From a virus, in IMG/VR virus record IMGVR_UViG_3300042561_000129, positions 1 through 39,985 of that record: a stretch of 39,985 nt of DNA. One strand, given 5' to 3'. Position numbers and translations under genes: made by a program. Shown here one piece after another: positions 3,881-38,915 of the stretch; within the stretch, counting starts at the first letter, position 1, and every line of letters begins with the position of its first letter. The notes beneath the pieces are model-generated. The model was not told the origin of the DNA. It saw nothing but the letters and a program-made list of their open reading frames with translations, and searched no databases.

Positions 3881-4138
3881 TTATGCTTTTTTCTTAGGTG
3901 CCTTCTTTGTAGGTTTCTTTGCTAATTTGTTTATTTCCAGTTCTACCCATTGAGCAACCTTGCCAAAAGCAGGGTCGTTCTTATCAATAGCACGGATTGC
4001 AGGACCTACGATTGCGGCAACTGTACCAGCAATTAAAGCCTTTACATTTGCATCAGGTGTGACTACCCAAACGCTTGCGGCAGTTAGAACAAAGTGACGC
4101 AATGCAGATTTGAGTTTGGCTATATCGTTTTCTTTCAT
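3881..4138 (-). CDS. Small holin-like membrane protein, 85 aa
   Basis: Two hydrophobic segments (about residues 15-27 and 33-50) are joined by a short Pro-Asp-Ala-Asn turn, and the C-terminus is a Lys/Pro/Ala-rich basic tail. This hairpin-plus-basic-tail layout is typical of actinophage holins. The gene overlaps the CHAP endolysin gene by four bases. The hydrophobic stretches are modest, so membrane insertion is likely but not certain. A second holin candidate lies on the other side of the endolysin. Confidence 0.65.
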   Translation of the reverse strand: MKENDIAKLKSALRHFVLTAASVWVVTPDANVKALIAGTVAAIVGPAIRAIDKNDPAFGKVAQWVELEINKLAKKPTKKAPKKKA

Positions 4139-4623
4139 GCTTTCTCCTTTATCGGGCGAGCCACTGCCATGACAACTGAATATGGGCGTTTCTTGCGATA
4201 GACCCCGCCGCCATTGCTTTGGCTACCTTTTCTGTTAGGGCTTGTATTGCCTTCTATGCAATACAAATGACCGCTACGGTTTTTGACAACAATTCCAACA
4301 TGGTCAGGCTGAGCATCGGTATCAAATTGGAAAAATGCTATGTCGCCTGGTTGTGCTTGTCCAATCGGCACTAATTTATCTTTAGCCGCAAACCATTTTA
4401 GCCCTGCATCACATGATGCAAAGCCTTTTGAGTTACTTGCCGCTATTTTCTTGCTCAACCCTGCTTTGTAAAAGACCCAAGAAACAAACATTGCGCACCA
4501 AGGTTGTTTATTTAACCCATACCATTTACCAAATTTAGTGTCATTGTTTGTGCCTTCTTCATACTTTAATTCTTGTTTTGCATAAAACAAAACTGTTTCT
4601 ATTTTGCCTTCTGTCAGACTCAT
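4135..4623 (-). CDS. Endolysin, CHAP-domain amidase/endopeptidase, 162 aa
   Basis: This is a single CHAP domain. Cys43 lies in PWCAMFVSWVF, His108 in PDHVGIVV, and Glu124/Asn126 in YCIEGNTS, which supply the catalytic Cys-His-Glu/Asn arrangement of the NlpC/P60-CHAP fold. It has no signal peptide and no separate cell-wall-binding domain; at 162 aa it is a minimal enzyme. It would cut the peptide part of host peptidoglycan and depend on a holin for release. It overlaps holin-like genes on both sides by four bases, giving a compact lysis cassette. Confidence 0.92.
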   Translation of the reverse strand: MSLTEGKIETVLFYAKQELKYEEGTNNDTKFGKWYGLNKQPWCAMFVSWVFYKAGLSKKIAASNSKGFASCDAGLKWFAAKDKLVPIGQAQPGDIAFFQFDTDAQPDHVGIVVKNRSGHLYCIEGNTSPNRKGSQSNGGGVYRKKRPYSVVMAVARPIKEKA

Positions 4624-33767: not shown

Positions 33768-33851
33768 TTATTCCTCATCATCTTCAACCCATTCCTCAGG
33801 GTCTATATCGGGCGTTACAGGCTCCCAATGATTAGGAAAAATAATAGACAT
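33768..33851 (-). CDS. Acidic mini-protein, 27 aa
   Basis: It encodes MSIIFPNHWEPVTPDIDPEE plus an acidic tail. The ATG touches the stop of the transglycosylase gene (TAATG), and the TAA is followed directly by the TTG start of the HNH gene, whose SD lies in the last codons. It may be a real acidic mini-protein or a leader that couples translation of HNH. It is short, so confidence is moderate. Confidence 0.5.
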   Translation of the reverse strand: MSIIFPNHWEPVTPDIDPEEWVEDDEE

Positions 33852-34210
33852 TAGTACCAACCACCTCTCCCGTTTTTATCCGCTCTTGAAAGCCAAGATT
33901 GTAATGCTCCGCATGGGGTTTTGTAACGAGATTCTATGTAGGTCAATCCCCATTGAATCTGCCCATGTGGGTTCTTCAAAAACTCATCAATCTGCTTCTT
34001 TGTGTTGTGCTTCATGTGCCTTTGAGGAATTCCGTAATCATGCGTGGGTGACTTTGCCTTGTAGTTCCAGGCTGATTCCTTGCCCCAAAGATGGGCCAAA
34101 CACTGCCATTGCTTTTTTGCACTGGGGAAGCGCTTACTGACCAAGTGTTTTGCGTAATCTTTCGGTTCCATAGAGGCAACGATAAATTGACGCTTTTCTT
34201 TTTCGGTCAT
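33851..34210 (-). CDS. Lysozyme-like transglycosylase, 119 aa from the first ATG; real N-terminus probably further upstream
   Basis: The pattern 'WQCLAHLWGKESAWNYKAKS' (catalytic Glu about residue 45), 'HDYGIPQRHM', 'QIQWGLTYIESRYKTPCGAL' and 'GRGGWY' is the actinobacterial phage transglycosylase/lysozyme-like family. Read upstream in frame, the codons give NKQILLVAAIAVGFAIAPSH followed by AHAPV, an almost ideal signal peptide with an Ala-x-Ala site right before this Met. That frame is open back to about 34318 but contains no ATG, GTG or TTG. A non-standard start, a frameshift from the upstream 30-aa gene, or a one-base sequence error in the GGGG run would each explain it. Confidence 0.82.
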   Translation of the reverse strand: MTEKEKRQFIVASMEPKDYAKHLVSKRFPSAKKQWQCLAHLWGKESAWNYKAKSPTHDYGIPQRHMKHNTKKQIDEFLKNPHGQIQWGLTYIESRYKTPCGALQSWLSRADKNGRGGWY

Positions 34211-34296
34211 GACGGGTGCGTGCGCGTGAGATGGCGCAATTGCAAATCCAACCGCAATAGCGGCTACTAAAAGGATTTGCTTGTTAGGGGTAACTT

Positions 34297-34389
34297 TTAG
34301 CCCCTGACTCCTAACGCCTCACATACTTTGCAAAGAGCATCAACCACTTTCCATGCTCCGCACTTACAACGAGATATTTTGTGGTCCAT
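34297..34389 (-). CDS. Cysteine microprotein, 30 aa
   Basis: It encodes MDHKISRCKCGAWKVVDALC and ten more residues, with Cys8-x-Cys10 and Cys20-x2-Cys23 forming a likely zinc knuckle. AAAGGGG precedes the ATG. It stops at 34297, in another frame relative to the signal-peptide frame of the transglycosylase gene. An extra G in its final GGGG run would fuse the two into one protein with an N-terminal zinc domain, a membrane segment and the enzyme. Confidence 0.5.
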   Translation of the reverse strand: MDHKISRCKCGAWKVVDALCKVCEALGVRG

Positions 34390-34873: not shown

Positions 34874-35039
34874 TTGCCGCCTTCTTTCGGTAGTAGTCGT
34901 TACTCCAACACCAATCACATTCGGCTATGAATGTATCTTGGTCTTTGTTTAGATGAATAGTAAGTCTGTTGGCGTATCCGCCAAAGGAGCCACACCATAT
35001 ACAGCGTGGTCTATCGTCATAATCGCCTGCTTGGTTCAT
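34857..35039 (-). CDS. Zinc-ribbon microprotein, 60 aa
   Basis: Two Cys-x2-Cys pairs (RCIWCGSFGG and ECDWCWSND), about 28 residues apart, form a zinc ribbon with Trp-rich knuckles; the tail is Lys/Asn-rich. The ATG overlaps the previous gene's TGA (ATGA). This is one of four Cys-pair microproteins in 34.3-35.5 kb. Function unknown. Confidence 0.7.
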   Translation of the reverse strand: MNQAGDYDDRPRCIWCGSFGGYANRLTIHLNKDQDTFIAECDWCWSNDYYRKKAANGKGN

Positions 35040-35212
35040 TGGCGGCTCTTGTAGATTGAAAGGGTCACTGGGTTAAATCCTGCAATCTTGAGAGCATCTT
35101 CAACAGCCCACTGCGCTTGTTCGCGTTGCATGCCATTGACCATTGATTTTGCCTTGCCTTCAGGGATTGAAAACTTGTCGTAATCAATCTCTAACTCAAT
35201 CTTGAACTTCAT
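35036..35212 (-). CDS. Small hypothetical protein, 58 aa
   Basis: It encodes MKFKIELEIDYDKFSIPEGK followed by a helix (NGMQREQAQWAVEDALKIAG) and a final strand. The beta-alpha-beta pattern is coherent, and ATGA overlaps exist at both ends. No recognised family. Confidence 0.68.
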   Translation of the reverse strand: MKFKIELEIDYDKFSIPEGKAKSMVNGMQREQAQWAVEDALKIAGFNPVTLSIYKSRQ

Positions 35213-35331
35213 AGTTTGACCTCTACAGGTATCGTGCAGTCACAAGGAACTACATCGCAACCATCATCATCGTTGTATGAAACATAACCCTTGCCGTAAC
35301 ACATCATGCACTTGAGTATTGGTGTTGTCAT
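35209..35331 (-). CDS. Zinc-knuckle microprotein, 40 aa
   Basis: It starts MTTPILKCMMCYGKGYVSYN. Cys8-x2-Cys11-x-Gly-x-Gly resembles one DnaJ-type repeat, and a second Cys-x4-Cys-x-Cys cluster lies 14 residues later. TGGAGGCAAAATA directly precedes the ATG, and the stop overlaps the next start. Too short for domain assignment, but its Cys spacing and SD support a real gene. Confidence 0.62.
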   Translation of the reverse strand: MTTPILKCMMCYGKGYVSYNDDDGCDVVPCDCTIPVEVKL

Positions 35332-35465
35332 TATTTTGCCTCCATTGATATTGAGTTGCATTGTCTGCATTGCCCGTATTGTTTATTTGTTTTTGTATCT
35401 ATTTTTCTATCTTGATGCGCGGAACACCCTTTTGGACAAATCCATTTAATTGCTGGTCGCGTCAT
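35331..35465 (-). CDS. Zinc-binding microprotein, 44 aa
   Basis: It starts MTRPAIKWICPKGCSAHQDR. Cys10-x3-Cys14 with His17, and a Cys33-x2-Cys36 pair after a Lys-rich loop, form a likely zinc site. GTGGAGGCAAAATC precedes the ATG. The last codons (SMEAK, stop) are the SD of the next gene read in frame. Confidence 0.62.
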   Translation of the reverse strand: MTRPAIKWICPKGCSAHQDRKIDTKTNKQYGQCRQCNSISMEAK

Positions 35466-35671
35466 GATTTTGCCTCCACTTCTACTATTTCAATTACTTG
35501 TAAGTGACTTCTTTTTGCAAATGCTTTTGCGCTTTCTTCTGCCAACGCTTTTGATATGTGCCAAGTTGCACCAAGGCCAGGATTCGTGGCTGACATATTT
35601 TTAAAAATAACAGCATGGGTGTAATTGCGGTTACTGCGTCTTGTAAAATCGTAACCAATAGTTTTAAACAT
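35462..35671 (-). CDS. Small hypothetical protein, 69 aa
   Basis: The start is placed at ATG 35671 (MFKTIGYDFTRRSNRNYTHA), which touches the upstream stop. The product has a beta strand, an Ala-rich helix (ISKALAEESAKAFAKRS) and a terminal strand ending VEAKS. No family is recognised. It overlaps the next gene by four bases. Confidence 0.68.
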   Translation of the reverse strand: MFKTIGYDFTRRSNRNYTHAVIFKNMSATNPGLGATWHISKALAEESAKAFAKRSHLQVIEIVEVEAKS

Positions 35672-36006
35672 TATGCACACACCCCATCTGCCTGTATGCG
35701 GCTGAGCAGTGCTGGGTCATCAACCAAAATAATTGTGTGCTTACCATCTAATGTGTATTTGATGCCTTGCTCTGTAAGATACAAACGCATCTTGAGCATT
35801 GCTACTTCTGCGCGGTCTAAATTACCAAAGTATTTAAGGCCAACAACTTTGTAACCAAAACCGTATTTTCCATCTTCATTGCGTGTCCAAATTTTTGCTG
35901 TTTGAAAACCACAATTACTGTACAAGTGCATCGCGTCTTGTGTGTAAAACCTAAGACCTGCTTTTGTAACAAGTGCCTTTGCTGTTGGTGTTGATAGTGT
36001 ATTCAT
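35671..36006 (-). CDS. Hypothetical protein, 111 aa
   Basis: The start is ATG 36006 (MNTLSTPTAKALVTKAGLRF). The fold alternates helices and strands: 'YTQDAMHLYSNCGFQTAKIW', 'YGFGYKVVGLKYFGNLDRAE', 'RLYLTEQGIKYTLDGKHTII'. No motif identifies a function. It follows the 61-aa gene driven by promoter cassette 1 with a two-base gap, so it is probably expressed early. Confidence 0.7.
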   Translation of the reverse strand: MNTLSTPTAKALVTKAGLRFYTQDAMHLYSNCGFQTAKIWTRNEDGKYGFGYKVVGLKYFGNLDRAEVAMLKMRLYLTEQGIKYTLDGKHTIILVDDPALLSRIQADGVCA

Positions 36007-36008
36007 AA

Positions 36009-36194
36009 TTAGCAACCTGCCTTTGGTGTGAGTGTTGCAATGAGGTTTATTAAGTTTCCGTATGCTATTTCTGAAATTACATGGTCATTTGCTTCAATGT
36101 AATCTTTAACTAACTCTGCAAGAAATGCACCTTGGTTTGGTGTAACTGATATTGAAACTTCTGCTAGTAACTCTGCGTATGTTTTGTTTGTCAT
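36009..36194 (-). CDS. Small protein driven by promoter cassette 1, 61 aa
   Basis: It begins MTNKTYAELLAEVSISVTPN at ATG 36194 behind ATGGAGGCAAGACAA. It is a helical protein (FLAELVKDYIEANDHVISEI) of unknown family. It is the first gene after a promoter with a 5' hairpin, so it is likely among the most strongly expressed early genes. Confidence 0.7.
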   Translation of the reverse strand: MTNKTYAELLAEVSISVTPNQGAFLAELVKDYIEANDHVISEIAYGNLINLIATLTPKAGC

Positions 36195-36217
36195 TTGTCT
36201 TGCCTCCATGTTGTAGG

Positions 36218-36270
36218 GGGTCTGTTTGACCCGTTGGTATAAGTATTACGGATTTTTGGGAAAGTTTCAA
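36218..36270 (-). promoter_or_regulatory. Promoter cassette 1: sigma-type promoter plus 5' hairpin
   Basis: On the minus strand a -35 TTGAAA (36265-36270) and a -10 TAATAC (36243-36248) are 16 bases apart. The expected transcript begins near 36236 and immediately forms GGGTC-loop-GACCC (36218-36232). The 15-mer AAGTATTACGGATTT (36241-36255, plus strand) recurs in cassette 2 at 36763-36777. Confidence 0.75.
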
Positions 36271-36286
36271 GGACCTTTTATGCCAA

Positions 36287-36514
36287 TTAACGGGATTTCC
36301 ACCAATCGTGGACTGAGCCGCCTTTTTTGGTGTATGCCACTGCAACCTCAATTAACTTCATTGCCTGTGCTGAGGCAGGCTTGCCAACTATGCCGCCAGT
36401 CAGGTGATAAGCCTCGTAAGAAGTAATTAATTCAGGTATTTCGTATTTGCGCCATTCTTGTAAAACCTTAAACGCTTCTTGGCCTTTTTTGTTGCCAGTT
36501 TTAGTTCTAGCCAT
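36287..36514 (-). CDS. Small hypothetical protein, 75 aa
   Basis: ATG at 36514 (MARTKTGNKKGQEAFKVLQE). The basic N-terminus is followed by helical segments and a Gly/Ser-rich end with two Trp (VHDWWKSR). No family is recognised. It overlaps the end of the 67-aa gene region closely and belongs to the operon of cassette 2. Confidence 0.66.
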   Translation of the reverse strand: MARTKTGNKKGQEAFKVLQEWRKYEIPELITSYEAYHLTGGIVGKPASAQAMKLIEVAVAYTKKGGSVHDWWKSR

Positions 36515-36515
36515 G

Positions 36516-36719
36516 TTATGCACCTACCTTTGATGCTACAAATGCATCGTAAAATTTCCAAAACTTGTTTTGTTTTGCTTCTGTTTGTTTGTTGAGCAAC
36601 TCAAGAATTCCCCAACGGCGCTCGCTGTTATTGTTTATTGCATCAAGTAATGCGTCTGCCATTTCAGGAAACTCTGAAATCTTTACATTGTTTGTGATTC
36701 TAGGAAAGTTGTTTGCCAT
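36516..36719 (-). CDS. Small protein driven by promoter cassette 2, 67 aa
   Basis: MANNFPRITNNVKISEFPEM starts at ATG 36719 behind AAGGCAAGGCAG. It is helical and Asn/Lys-rich with 'ERRWGILELLNKQTEAKQNK'. No family is recognised. It is the first gene after the second promoter-hairpin cassette. Confidence 0.68.
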   Translation of the reverse strand: MANNFPRITNNVKISEFPEMADALLDAINNNSERRWGILELLNKQTEAKQNKFWKFYDAFVASKVGA

Positions 36720-37805: not shown

Positions 37806-38568
37806 GGAGTAGCACCTTTATGTTCTCAGGCATAGGAACAGCCTTTTGCTTTTGTTCTTCTAGTTCTCTTTGCCACCGTAATGTTTCCTCTATATCGCGG
37901 CGGCGTCTTTCCTCAATCATTCTCTTATGTTCTGCTTCTTTTTCATCAGCCGTCTTGATGCGCTCAGGTAATGGCTCATCATTCCAACGACCAGCATTGA
38001 GCCATGTTGTTGGGTGAGCAGTAAAGGCATCTACGCGATTAGGGTCATCTGCATATCTCAAAGCCCCTGCAATAATTACATTTTCCTCTGTTGTTTTTGT
38101 TGCTTTTGCGTAGGCTCTTTCTGCGGCTTGCTTGCCAACCTTTCTTGGGTAAATCTTCCAAAATTCCTCAAAGAGGTTTGTATCTAAGTTCTTCTTAGAT
38201 AGTACTTCTAAAGGAGTGCGGTTTTCCGACTGCGGGTAACCAGAATTCGGTTTTTGGACTTCGGTTGCCTCATAATTTGGGGTGTCATAAACAATGCTCA
38301 CGGTTTCAAACTGCCCACTGTCTTTGCGCAATTTTTGTGTCCGCATGTATCCCACCTCCCGCAGTTCCTTTAGTGCGGTCAGGATTGCGTGGCGACCTTC
38401 TAAACCTGACCGCGCCAAAGAATCCGCCGATATACGCCAGTTATCAGGGCGGCTCAAGATGTCTAGCAATACACCTCTTGCGCGATAACTTAGGCGCGTA
38501 TCTCTAATGACGGAATTTGAGATAACACTAAAATTACTTTCTACTCTAGGTGAGCGAATGATGCTCAT
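37792..38568 (-). CDS. Winged-helix replication initiation protein (O/DnaD-like), 258 aa
   Basis: The start at ATG 38568 has GAAGGAGAATCA ahead of it. Residues 18-80 form a winged helix (SYRARGVLLDILSRPDNWRI, SADSLARSGLEGRHAILTAL, REVGYM). The middle is flexible. The 'LFEEFWKIYPRKVGKQAAER' motif at about 133-155 is the C-terminal domain seen in many phage replication proteins that load the host helicase. The end is a charged helix. No DNA polymerase or helicase is encoded here, so this protein would recruit host machinery. Confidence 0.82.
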   Translation of the reverse strand: MSIIRSPRVESNFSVISNSVIRDTRLSYRARGVLLDILSRPDNWRISADSLARSGLEGRHAILTALKELREVGYMRTQKLRKDSGQFETVSIVYDTPNYEATEVQKPNSGYPQSENRTPLEVLSKKNLDTNLFEEFWKIYPRKVGKQAAERAYAKATKTTEENVIIAGALRYADDPNRVDAFTAHPTTWLNAGRWNDEPLPERIKTADEKEAEHKRMIEERRRRDIEETLRWQRELEEQKQKAVPMPENIKVLLRGQI

Positions 38569-38915
38569 TGATTCTCCTTCGTATCTCCAACACATTCCAT
38601 AATGTCGCTATAACTTATCCCAACTTCTTCAAAAGCAAAAAGCGCTCGCACCTGTTGATTTGGATACTTTTTTGGATTACGGAATGAATAACGCTCAACG
38701 CTTGTCATGCCGCCCCATACGCCATAGTCCTCATGCTCCATGGCGTAGGTCAAACAAGTTTTCCAAATTGGGCAGGCTAAACAAATTGTCCGCAAAGCAT
38801 TGATGTATTCGTAAGCAACAATGCTTCTTTCTTCTTCCACATTGTAAAAAATATCCGTGTAAACAGAATCTCTACAAGCGGCATTTTCCCAATTTATTTC
38901 ATTGTACTTGGGCAA
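38565..38915 (-). CDS. whiB: WhiB-family Fe-S transcriptional regulator, 116 aa
   Basis: The four cluster cysteines are Cys14 (AACRD), Cys45, Cys48 and Cys54 (ICLACPIWKTC), followed by GVWGGMT at 65-71, the WhiB turn that contacts sigma factor. WhiB proteins occur in actinobacteria and their phages, where they bind the principal sigma factor region 4 and alter host promoter use. After the turn comes a C-terminal extension of about 45 residues. The gene overlaps the exonuclease gene by 22 bases and the replication gene by four, placing it in the early operon. Confidence 0.93.
   Translation of the reverse strand: MPKYNEINWENAACRDSVYTDIFYNVEEERSIVAYEYINALRTICLACPIWKTCLTYAMEHEDYGVWGGMTSVERYSFRNPKKYPNQQVRALFAFEEVGISYSDIMECVGDTKENQ

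Follow-up and report, generated by a model that had tools for sequence, protein, structure and literature searches.

An apparently conserved translation-control site in place of a canonical start codon in the exported transglycosylase gene of phages of freshwater actinobacteria

How an exported enzyme is translated from a reading frame with no usual start codon is the question raised by the virus record IMGVR_UViG_3300042561_000129, which was analyzed over its full 39,985 nucleotides (the window). On the minus strand, 34318-33851 forms a single open frame (GVRSQGLKVTPNKQILLVAAIAVGFAIAPSHAHAPVMTEKEK...GRGGWY*) in which the first ATG, GTG or TTG is the ATG at 34210, downstream of the codons for a signal peptide. 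A first-pass annotation had reported that the frame, open to 34318, has no ATG, GTG or TTG upstream of 34210, and our reading of the minus strand confirmed this. It had also described the product as an exported enzyme, which the conserved signal peptide supports at the level of sequence. The coding region and the gene that follows it were assigned as follows.

33851..34294, minus strand: exported lytic transglycosylase-like protein with an SLT / AggPromo_Cterm domain, 147 codons counted from the proposed start
34217..34294, minus strand: signal peptide VTPNKQILLVAAIAVGFAIAPSHAHA, with a K-containing n-region, a hydrophobic core and an AHA cleavage-like end
33768..33851, minus strand: 27-aa acidic ORF, the ATG of which overlaps the enzyme stop (TAATG) and is retained in the relatives compared

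The enzyme scored above the cut-offs for Pfam SLT (PF01464; E=4.6e-6, 26.6 bits, curated cut-off 21.3) and NCBIfam AggPromo_Cterm (NF052397; E=6.9e-19, 68.1 bits, cut-off 40). The catalytic Glu lies in a GKES..W motif and was invariant across 22 alignment rows. An AlphaFold model built on a shallow alignment was of low confidence (pTM 0.65), and Foldseek returned no PDB fold match for it. The signal peptide was kept across the family and is followed directly by an invariant A-P at which synonymous change is free. These residues, A27 and P28, lie 5' of ATG 34210 in a hairpin-free stretch and were invariant or nearly so, with synonymous observed/expected ratios of 0.95 and 1.0; since the residues are kept while their synonymous codons drift, the region before ATG 34210 appears to be translated. 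The 'hydrolase' gp38 of Streptomyces phage Enygma shares the SLT / AggPromo_Cterm domain at 39% identity and is also followed by an HNH gene, but its annotation is that of an ordinary 543-nt gene. The neighbors of the enzyme gene in the window encode SSB and HNH proteins, and a separate endolysin gene is located at 4135-4623 (PHROG endolysin, E=1.4e-61), making the exported transglycosylase an additional wall-cutting enzyme. Action in entry or superinfection exclusion instead of lysis, as raised in the first-pass annotation, would still be a guess. With a dedicated endolysin elsewhere and SSB and HNH genes alongside, an exported wall-cutting enzyme at this position would plausibly have to be scarce. 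The window also carries a WhiB-like regulator (38565-38915) and a protein with a best PHROG of phrog_645, annotated RNase E (31484-32011).

A scan of viral contigs identified 34 loci with 63-100% identity to the enzyme, and later scans added L051, L065-L069, L081, L089, L123, L212 and L239; L123 is an Actinomycetota MAG, and L212 was recovered at 38% identity with L089 as the query. The relatives were aligned using the invariant LLVA/LVVA/LIVA core as an anchor. This analysis revealed no ATG, GTG or TTG before the signal peptide in 38/38 distinct homologous sequences from many metagenomes. Related phages with a normal ATG at this position, named in the first-pass annotation as the sign of an error, were looked for and numbered 0/38. 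In L081 the first canonical codon is codon 93, past the catalytic Glu at codon 72, and in L212 it is codon 23, past the hydrophobic core. The ATG at 34210 was not conserved, being absent from L011, L014, L016, L033, L034, L081 and others. Across these 38 distinct sequences, with L081 and L212 the clearest instances, a conserved protein was found that cannot be produced from any canonical start, and a recurrence on this scale is, judged from the sequences, far beyond chance. Within the gene set of the window, most genes have an ATG, GTG or TTG near the open start; with one edge-cut frame excluded, no other frame stays open as long ahead of its first canonical codon as that of the enzyme (36 codons). 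The HNH gene two genes downstream uses TTG, GTG or ATG only in the 18 sequences with a readable start. In the small contigs L098, L103, L111, L120, L121 and L122, the sequence just before the SLT ORF codes for a G-rich stretch (WGG.NGGG or RWGGVRGG) together with a hydrophobic segment, near which no obvious start is seen.

Directly upstream of the enzyme gene, in every locus of the clade that reaches far enough, lies a small cysteine-containing ORF.

34297..34389, minus strand: zinc-ribbon-like 30-aa Cys ORF MDHKISRCKCGAWKVVDALCKVCEALGVRG, with an ATG start, an AAGGGG ribosome-binding site and a TAA stop

In the window the stop of this ORF, TAA 34299-34297, comes behind a run of four G (GGGGC-TAA); as had been pointed out from the sequence earlier, one extra G, equivalent to a -1 shift, would join the two frames. 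The Cys protein has the invariant pattern R..C..G.W......C..C and matched no Pfam family at the curated level and no PHROG. A faint likeness to the bL32 zinc ribbon (C..CGAW...C..C) was seen at E=0.036, with equal spacing in L008 (4893-4982), and AlphaFold gave a pLDDT of 67. A second clade (L096, L097, L100, L101, L108, L110, L154 and L158), in which the enzyme starts with GTG, carries a homologue of the Cys ORF that lies ~1.2 kb further downstream than the enzyme. The gene after this homologue encodes ~87-90 aa and has an ordinary ATG as well as a Shine-Dalgarno sequence of its own. The homologues of this GTG clade (L097: 4232-4375) have the pattern M.DSKV.RCKCGEWLYGDQEC.VCDI. As the homologue sits apart from the enzyme there, the function of the Cys protein would be independent of the junction; on sequence grounds, these proteins are an unclassified zinc-ribbon-like phage protein family with a function of its own. 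Upstream of the locus, 35036-36719 of the window holds a run of small uncharacterized ORFs, several with Cys pairs.

Alignment of the junction identified a candidate start codon and two G-rich runs ahead of it.

34292..34294, minus strand: proposed non-canonical start GTT, exactly 7 codons before LLVA (ATA, ATT, CTG or GTT in relatives)
34301..34305, minus strand: AGGGG, another G-rich and Shine-Dalgarno-like run, located 6 nt ahead of the proposed start
34308..34312, minus strand: Shine-Dalgarno-like run AGGAG, which reads GGAGG in most relatives, located 13 nt ahead of the proposed start

At codon -7 from LLVA, the 38 distinct sequences carry ATA (17), GTT (15), ATT (3) or CTG (3); the middle T is invariant, and at least 9 changes among these four codons are needed on the tree. 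Given the codon frequencies, 8-12 independent lineages would all lack a canonical codon at this single column with a P of about 0.04-0.11; taken by itself, this absence is thus no more than mildly improbable, which limits its weight. The stop of the Cys ORF begins between 7 nt before and 1 nt after the first base of the column. An in-frame stop 6 nt upstream of the column in L008, L017 and L239 places the start in these sequences at or after the column codon. In the L018/L027 group, which has GTT at the column, an ATA one codon upstream overlaps the Cys stop (ATAG) and may be the real start. The G columns of the AGGAG run, for which duplex energies with the anti-Shine-Dalgarno were computed, were invariant or nearly so in alignment A3, and columns 16 and 18 of the same alignment, G positions of the AGGGG run, were nearly invariant. 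At 6-7 nt from the column, relatives have AAGGAG (L008/L017), AAAGGG (L065) or GAAGG (L021). The suggestion in the first-pass annotation of a non-standard start is supported by these comparisons: the best candidate is GTT 34294-34292, and the ATC at 34276-34274, in the hydrophobic region, was rejected because relatives have GCA, GTC, TAC or TTC at the same place. The CTA at 34300, which is well spaced from AGGAG, was also discarded, since relatives have stops or unrelated codons there.

Three points speak against reading this column as a start. GGAGG, the strongest of the Shine-Dalgarno-like runs, lies at the long distance of 13 nt; GTT mismatches the initiator tRNA at two positions and by itself should be very weak; and ATA, ATT, GTT and CTG also encode a conserved Ile/Val/Leu, as expected of an internal residue. 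GTT is not among the natural start codons known to us.

The signal-peptide codons also encode a conserved RNA structure, an unexpected feature that the first-pass annotation had not noted.

34241..34281, minus strand: RNA hairpin with a 9-bp outer stem, a 7-nt 5' bulge (UUUUAGU) and a 6-bp inner stem with a tetraloop

The hairpin extends from nt 14-15 to nt 54 of the coding sequence, and it keeps a constant distance from the start column, 22 sequences aligning there without a gap. Strong synonymous conservation was detected at codons 0-10 and 13, and the rest of the gene was largely without it. Codon 10 is GCC in all sequences and codon 8 is always NTA although the residue varies between Leu, Val and Ile, indicating that nucleotides are better kept than amino acids; likewise, conservation is higher for the bulge bases (CU..UA.U.GCC) than for the residues that they specify. 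Among 22 representatives, 90.6% of cells pair, and changes on both sides of a pair numbered 47 compared with 15.4 in shuffles. The covariation score was 0.421 compared with 0.188 for shuffled alignments (reached in 0/500 shuffles), and it fell to 0.10 or less when the structure was slid along the alignment; RNAalifold provided further supporting evidence. The outer stem is formed by GCAAATCC/GGATTTGC in the window, CGATACC/GGTATCG in L021 and CAATTCC/GGAATTG in L065. The folding-energy z-score was -3.2 at the hairpin stretch only and near zero elsewhere. Owing to an invariant G-U pair, folding favors the sense strand over its complement in 24/24 sequences, which identifies the sense strand as the one that folds. 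No match in Rfam 15 reached the gathering score; this covarying RNA motif is new and has no Rfam entry. A possible second hairpin around the start (GGGGC..GCCYY) was suggestive by eye, with a mean z of -0.9, and is not claimed. A pseudoknot between the bulge and upstream sequence (CTAAAAG/CTTTTAG in the window) was rejected as not conserved.

Covariance models found the element once per phage: 15/17 virus records from the non-canonical clade had it, as did the L123 genome. The exceptions were L212, which was weak with model R2 (23 bits with R1), and L160, an error-ridden contig. L160 and L237 are one contig with a related locus, where the hairpin core is kept although numerous small indels affect both the Cys ORF and the enzyme; it looks like an error-rich assembly. 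The same models detected the hairpin in 0/8 sampled records with an ATG- or GTG-started enzyme, and gave no match in 165 other bacterial genomes of the order of L123. The weak start and the hairpin are both absent where the Cys ORF sits apart from the enzyme; both go with the Cys-enzyme junction.

Taken together, the exported transglycosylase is probably produced by coupled, deliberately weak near-cognate initiation that is tuned by the downstream hairpin. Ribosomes would complete the 30-aa zinc-ribbon-like ORF, with its stop at -7 to +1 nt from the start codon, and some of these terminating ribosomes, or 30S subunits that the G-rich runs at -18 and -11 keep in place, would re-initiate at the weak codon. 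With the column codon in the P-site, the base of the hairpin would lie at the mRNA entry of the initiating ribosome, so that re-initiating ribosomes would halt with this codon in place. Most likely the hairpin would position or hold the ribosome, making a poor codon usable at a low, coupled rate, and low expression would be the purpose of the arrangement. The direction of the hairpin effect might be the opposite. In E. coli, mRNA structure just after a stop codon lowers re-initiation (PMC7518266), and by this analogy the hairpin might repress. A stronger version of the proposal, which we consider doubtful, is that the bulged hairpin at nt 14-15 sets the P-site on any NTN codon, so that initiation would be largely independent of the match to the initiator tRNA, even for GTT. 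If true, a hairpin-set P-site would be the equivalent in bacteria of non-AUG initiation directed by a hairpin, and the neighboring zinc-ribbon peptide might gate it.

Several known systems share parts of this layout. Conserved AUA/AUU starts with ~10-30% of the activity of AUG occur in infC, ccpN and cvfC1 of S. aureus, and conserved weak starts are documented as expression limiters (PMC13009471). In bacterial non-AUG genes (infC AUU/AUA, pcnB AUU, ccpN AUA and cvfC1 AUU), a near-cognate start is under selection and is read as limiting expression, with an upstream Shine-Dalgarno-like run as found here. Unlike these genes, the present one is a phage gene in which ATA, ATT, GTT and CTG are swapped, the upstream stop overlaps or adjoins the start, and a hairpin lies inside the coding region. 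Eukaryotic tests revealed that hairpins starting at nt 12-18 of the coding sequence raise initiation at weak non-AUG codons (PMC2001202), a placement that includes the nt 14-15 observed here. Such Kozak-type hairpins act on the scanning 40S subunit, whereas the element described here belongs to bacterial phages and is bulged and conserved in sequence. Termination structures at bacterial operon junctions likewise place mRNA structure shortly past a stop codon, where it affects re-initiation (PMC7518266); they were described as a general folding bias, in contrast to a specific, covarying element at a fixed distance from a start. The com-mom operon of phage Mu also joins a gene for a small Cys/zinc protein to a gene that starts beside an RNA structure (PMC6483171), but the GUG of mom is inside its hairpin and the hairpin here is downstream of the start. 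No homology between the Cys protein and Com was detected with Pfam at the curated level.

The likeness to Mu bears on an unlikely alternative, in which the hairpin would serve mainly for binding or repression: a Com-like zinc-ribbon peptide, some other protein or a ligand would bind the bulge and so switch enzyme translation. A small Cys protein is encoded beside the structured start in every member reaching that far, the bulge bases are kept better than their amino acids, and Com of Mu binds a hairpin beside the GUG start of mom (PMC6483171). However, a clade that lacks the RNA element also has a homologous Cys protein, the function of which is thus independent of the hairpin, and the Cys protein matches none of the Pfam families that would make it Com. 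We give still less weight to a programmed -1 frameshift, or bypass, at GGGG that would yield a fusion of zinc ribbon, membrane anchor and transglycosylase. Relative to the enzyme, most members have the Cys ORF in frame +1, so that a -1 slip on AGG GGC TAR would fuse the two; the upstream Shine-Dalgarno-like runs and downstream hairpin resemble the general layout of dnaX-type stimulators; and Ile, Val or Leu at the start column suits an internal hydrophobic residue. The programmed shift put forward in the first-pass annotation nevertheless found no support across the family. The Cys ORF and the enzyme share one frame in L008, L017 and L239, separated by a stop, so a slip cannot work in these sequences; no shift is needed there, and readthrough would be another kind of mechanism. 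GGGGC is missing from L021, L212, L089 and others, with no slippery heptamer or common slip site conserved, and the hairpin starts ~18 nt past the Cys stop, too distant for a ribosome standing there. A start at the column suits L008, L017, L239, L021, L089 and L212 alike.

We consider it very improbable that the enzyme is a cytoplasmic protein made from ATG 34210, with the signal-peptide-like reading a by-product of the RNA structure. This ATG is present in the window and many relatives have an ATG or GTG nearby, but it is missing from others and has no consistent Shine-Dalgarno sequence ahead of it. The AxA-AP region is conserved at the protein level outside the hairpin, and L081 refutes the idea for its own enzyme, its first canonical codon lying after the catalytic Glu. 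A sequencing or assembly error in the window, offered earlier as an explanation because a one-base change near 34301-34304 would fuse both ORFs, is hardly credible: the arrangement is identical in L001 and 37 other distinct sequences, and a missing start common to 38 homologues from many metagenomes led us to reject it.

In phages of freshwater actinobacteria, the missing start thus appears, from comparison of their genomes, to be a conserved translation-control site and not a sequencing error. Gene finders assume ATG, GTG or TTG, and so for every such phage they would truncate the signal peptide or label the protein cytoplasmic. The natural series of ATA, ATT, GTT and CTG at one position, each with matched hairpin variants, would provide a means of probing how bacterial ribosomes handle near-cognate starts that lie beside a stop codon and a hairpin.
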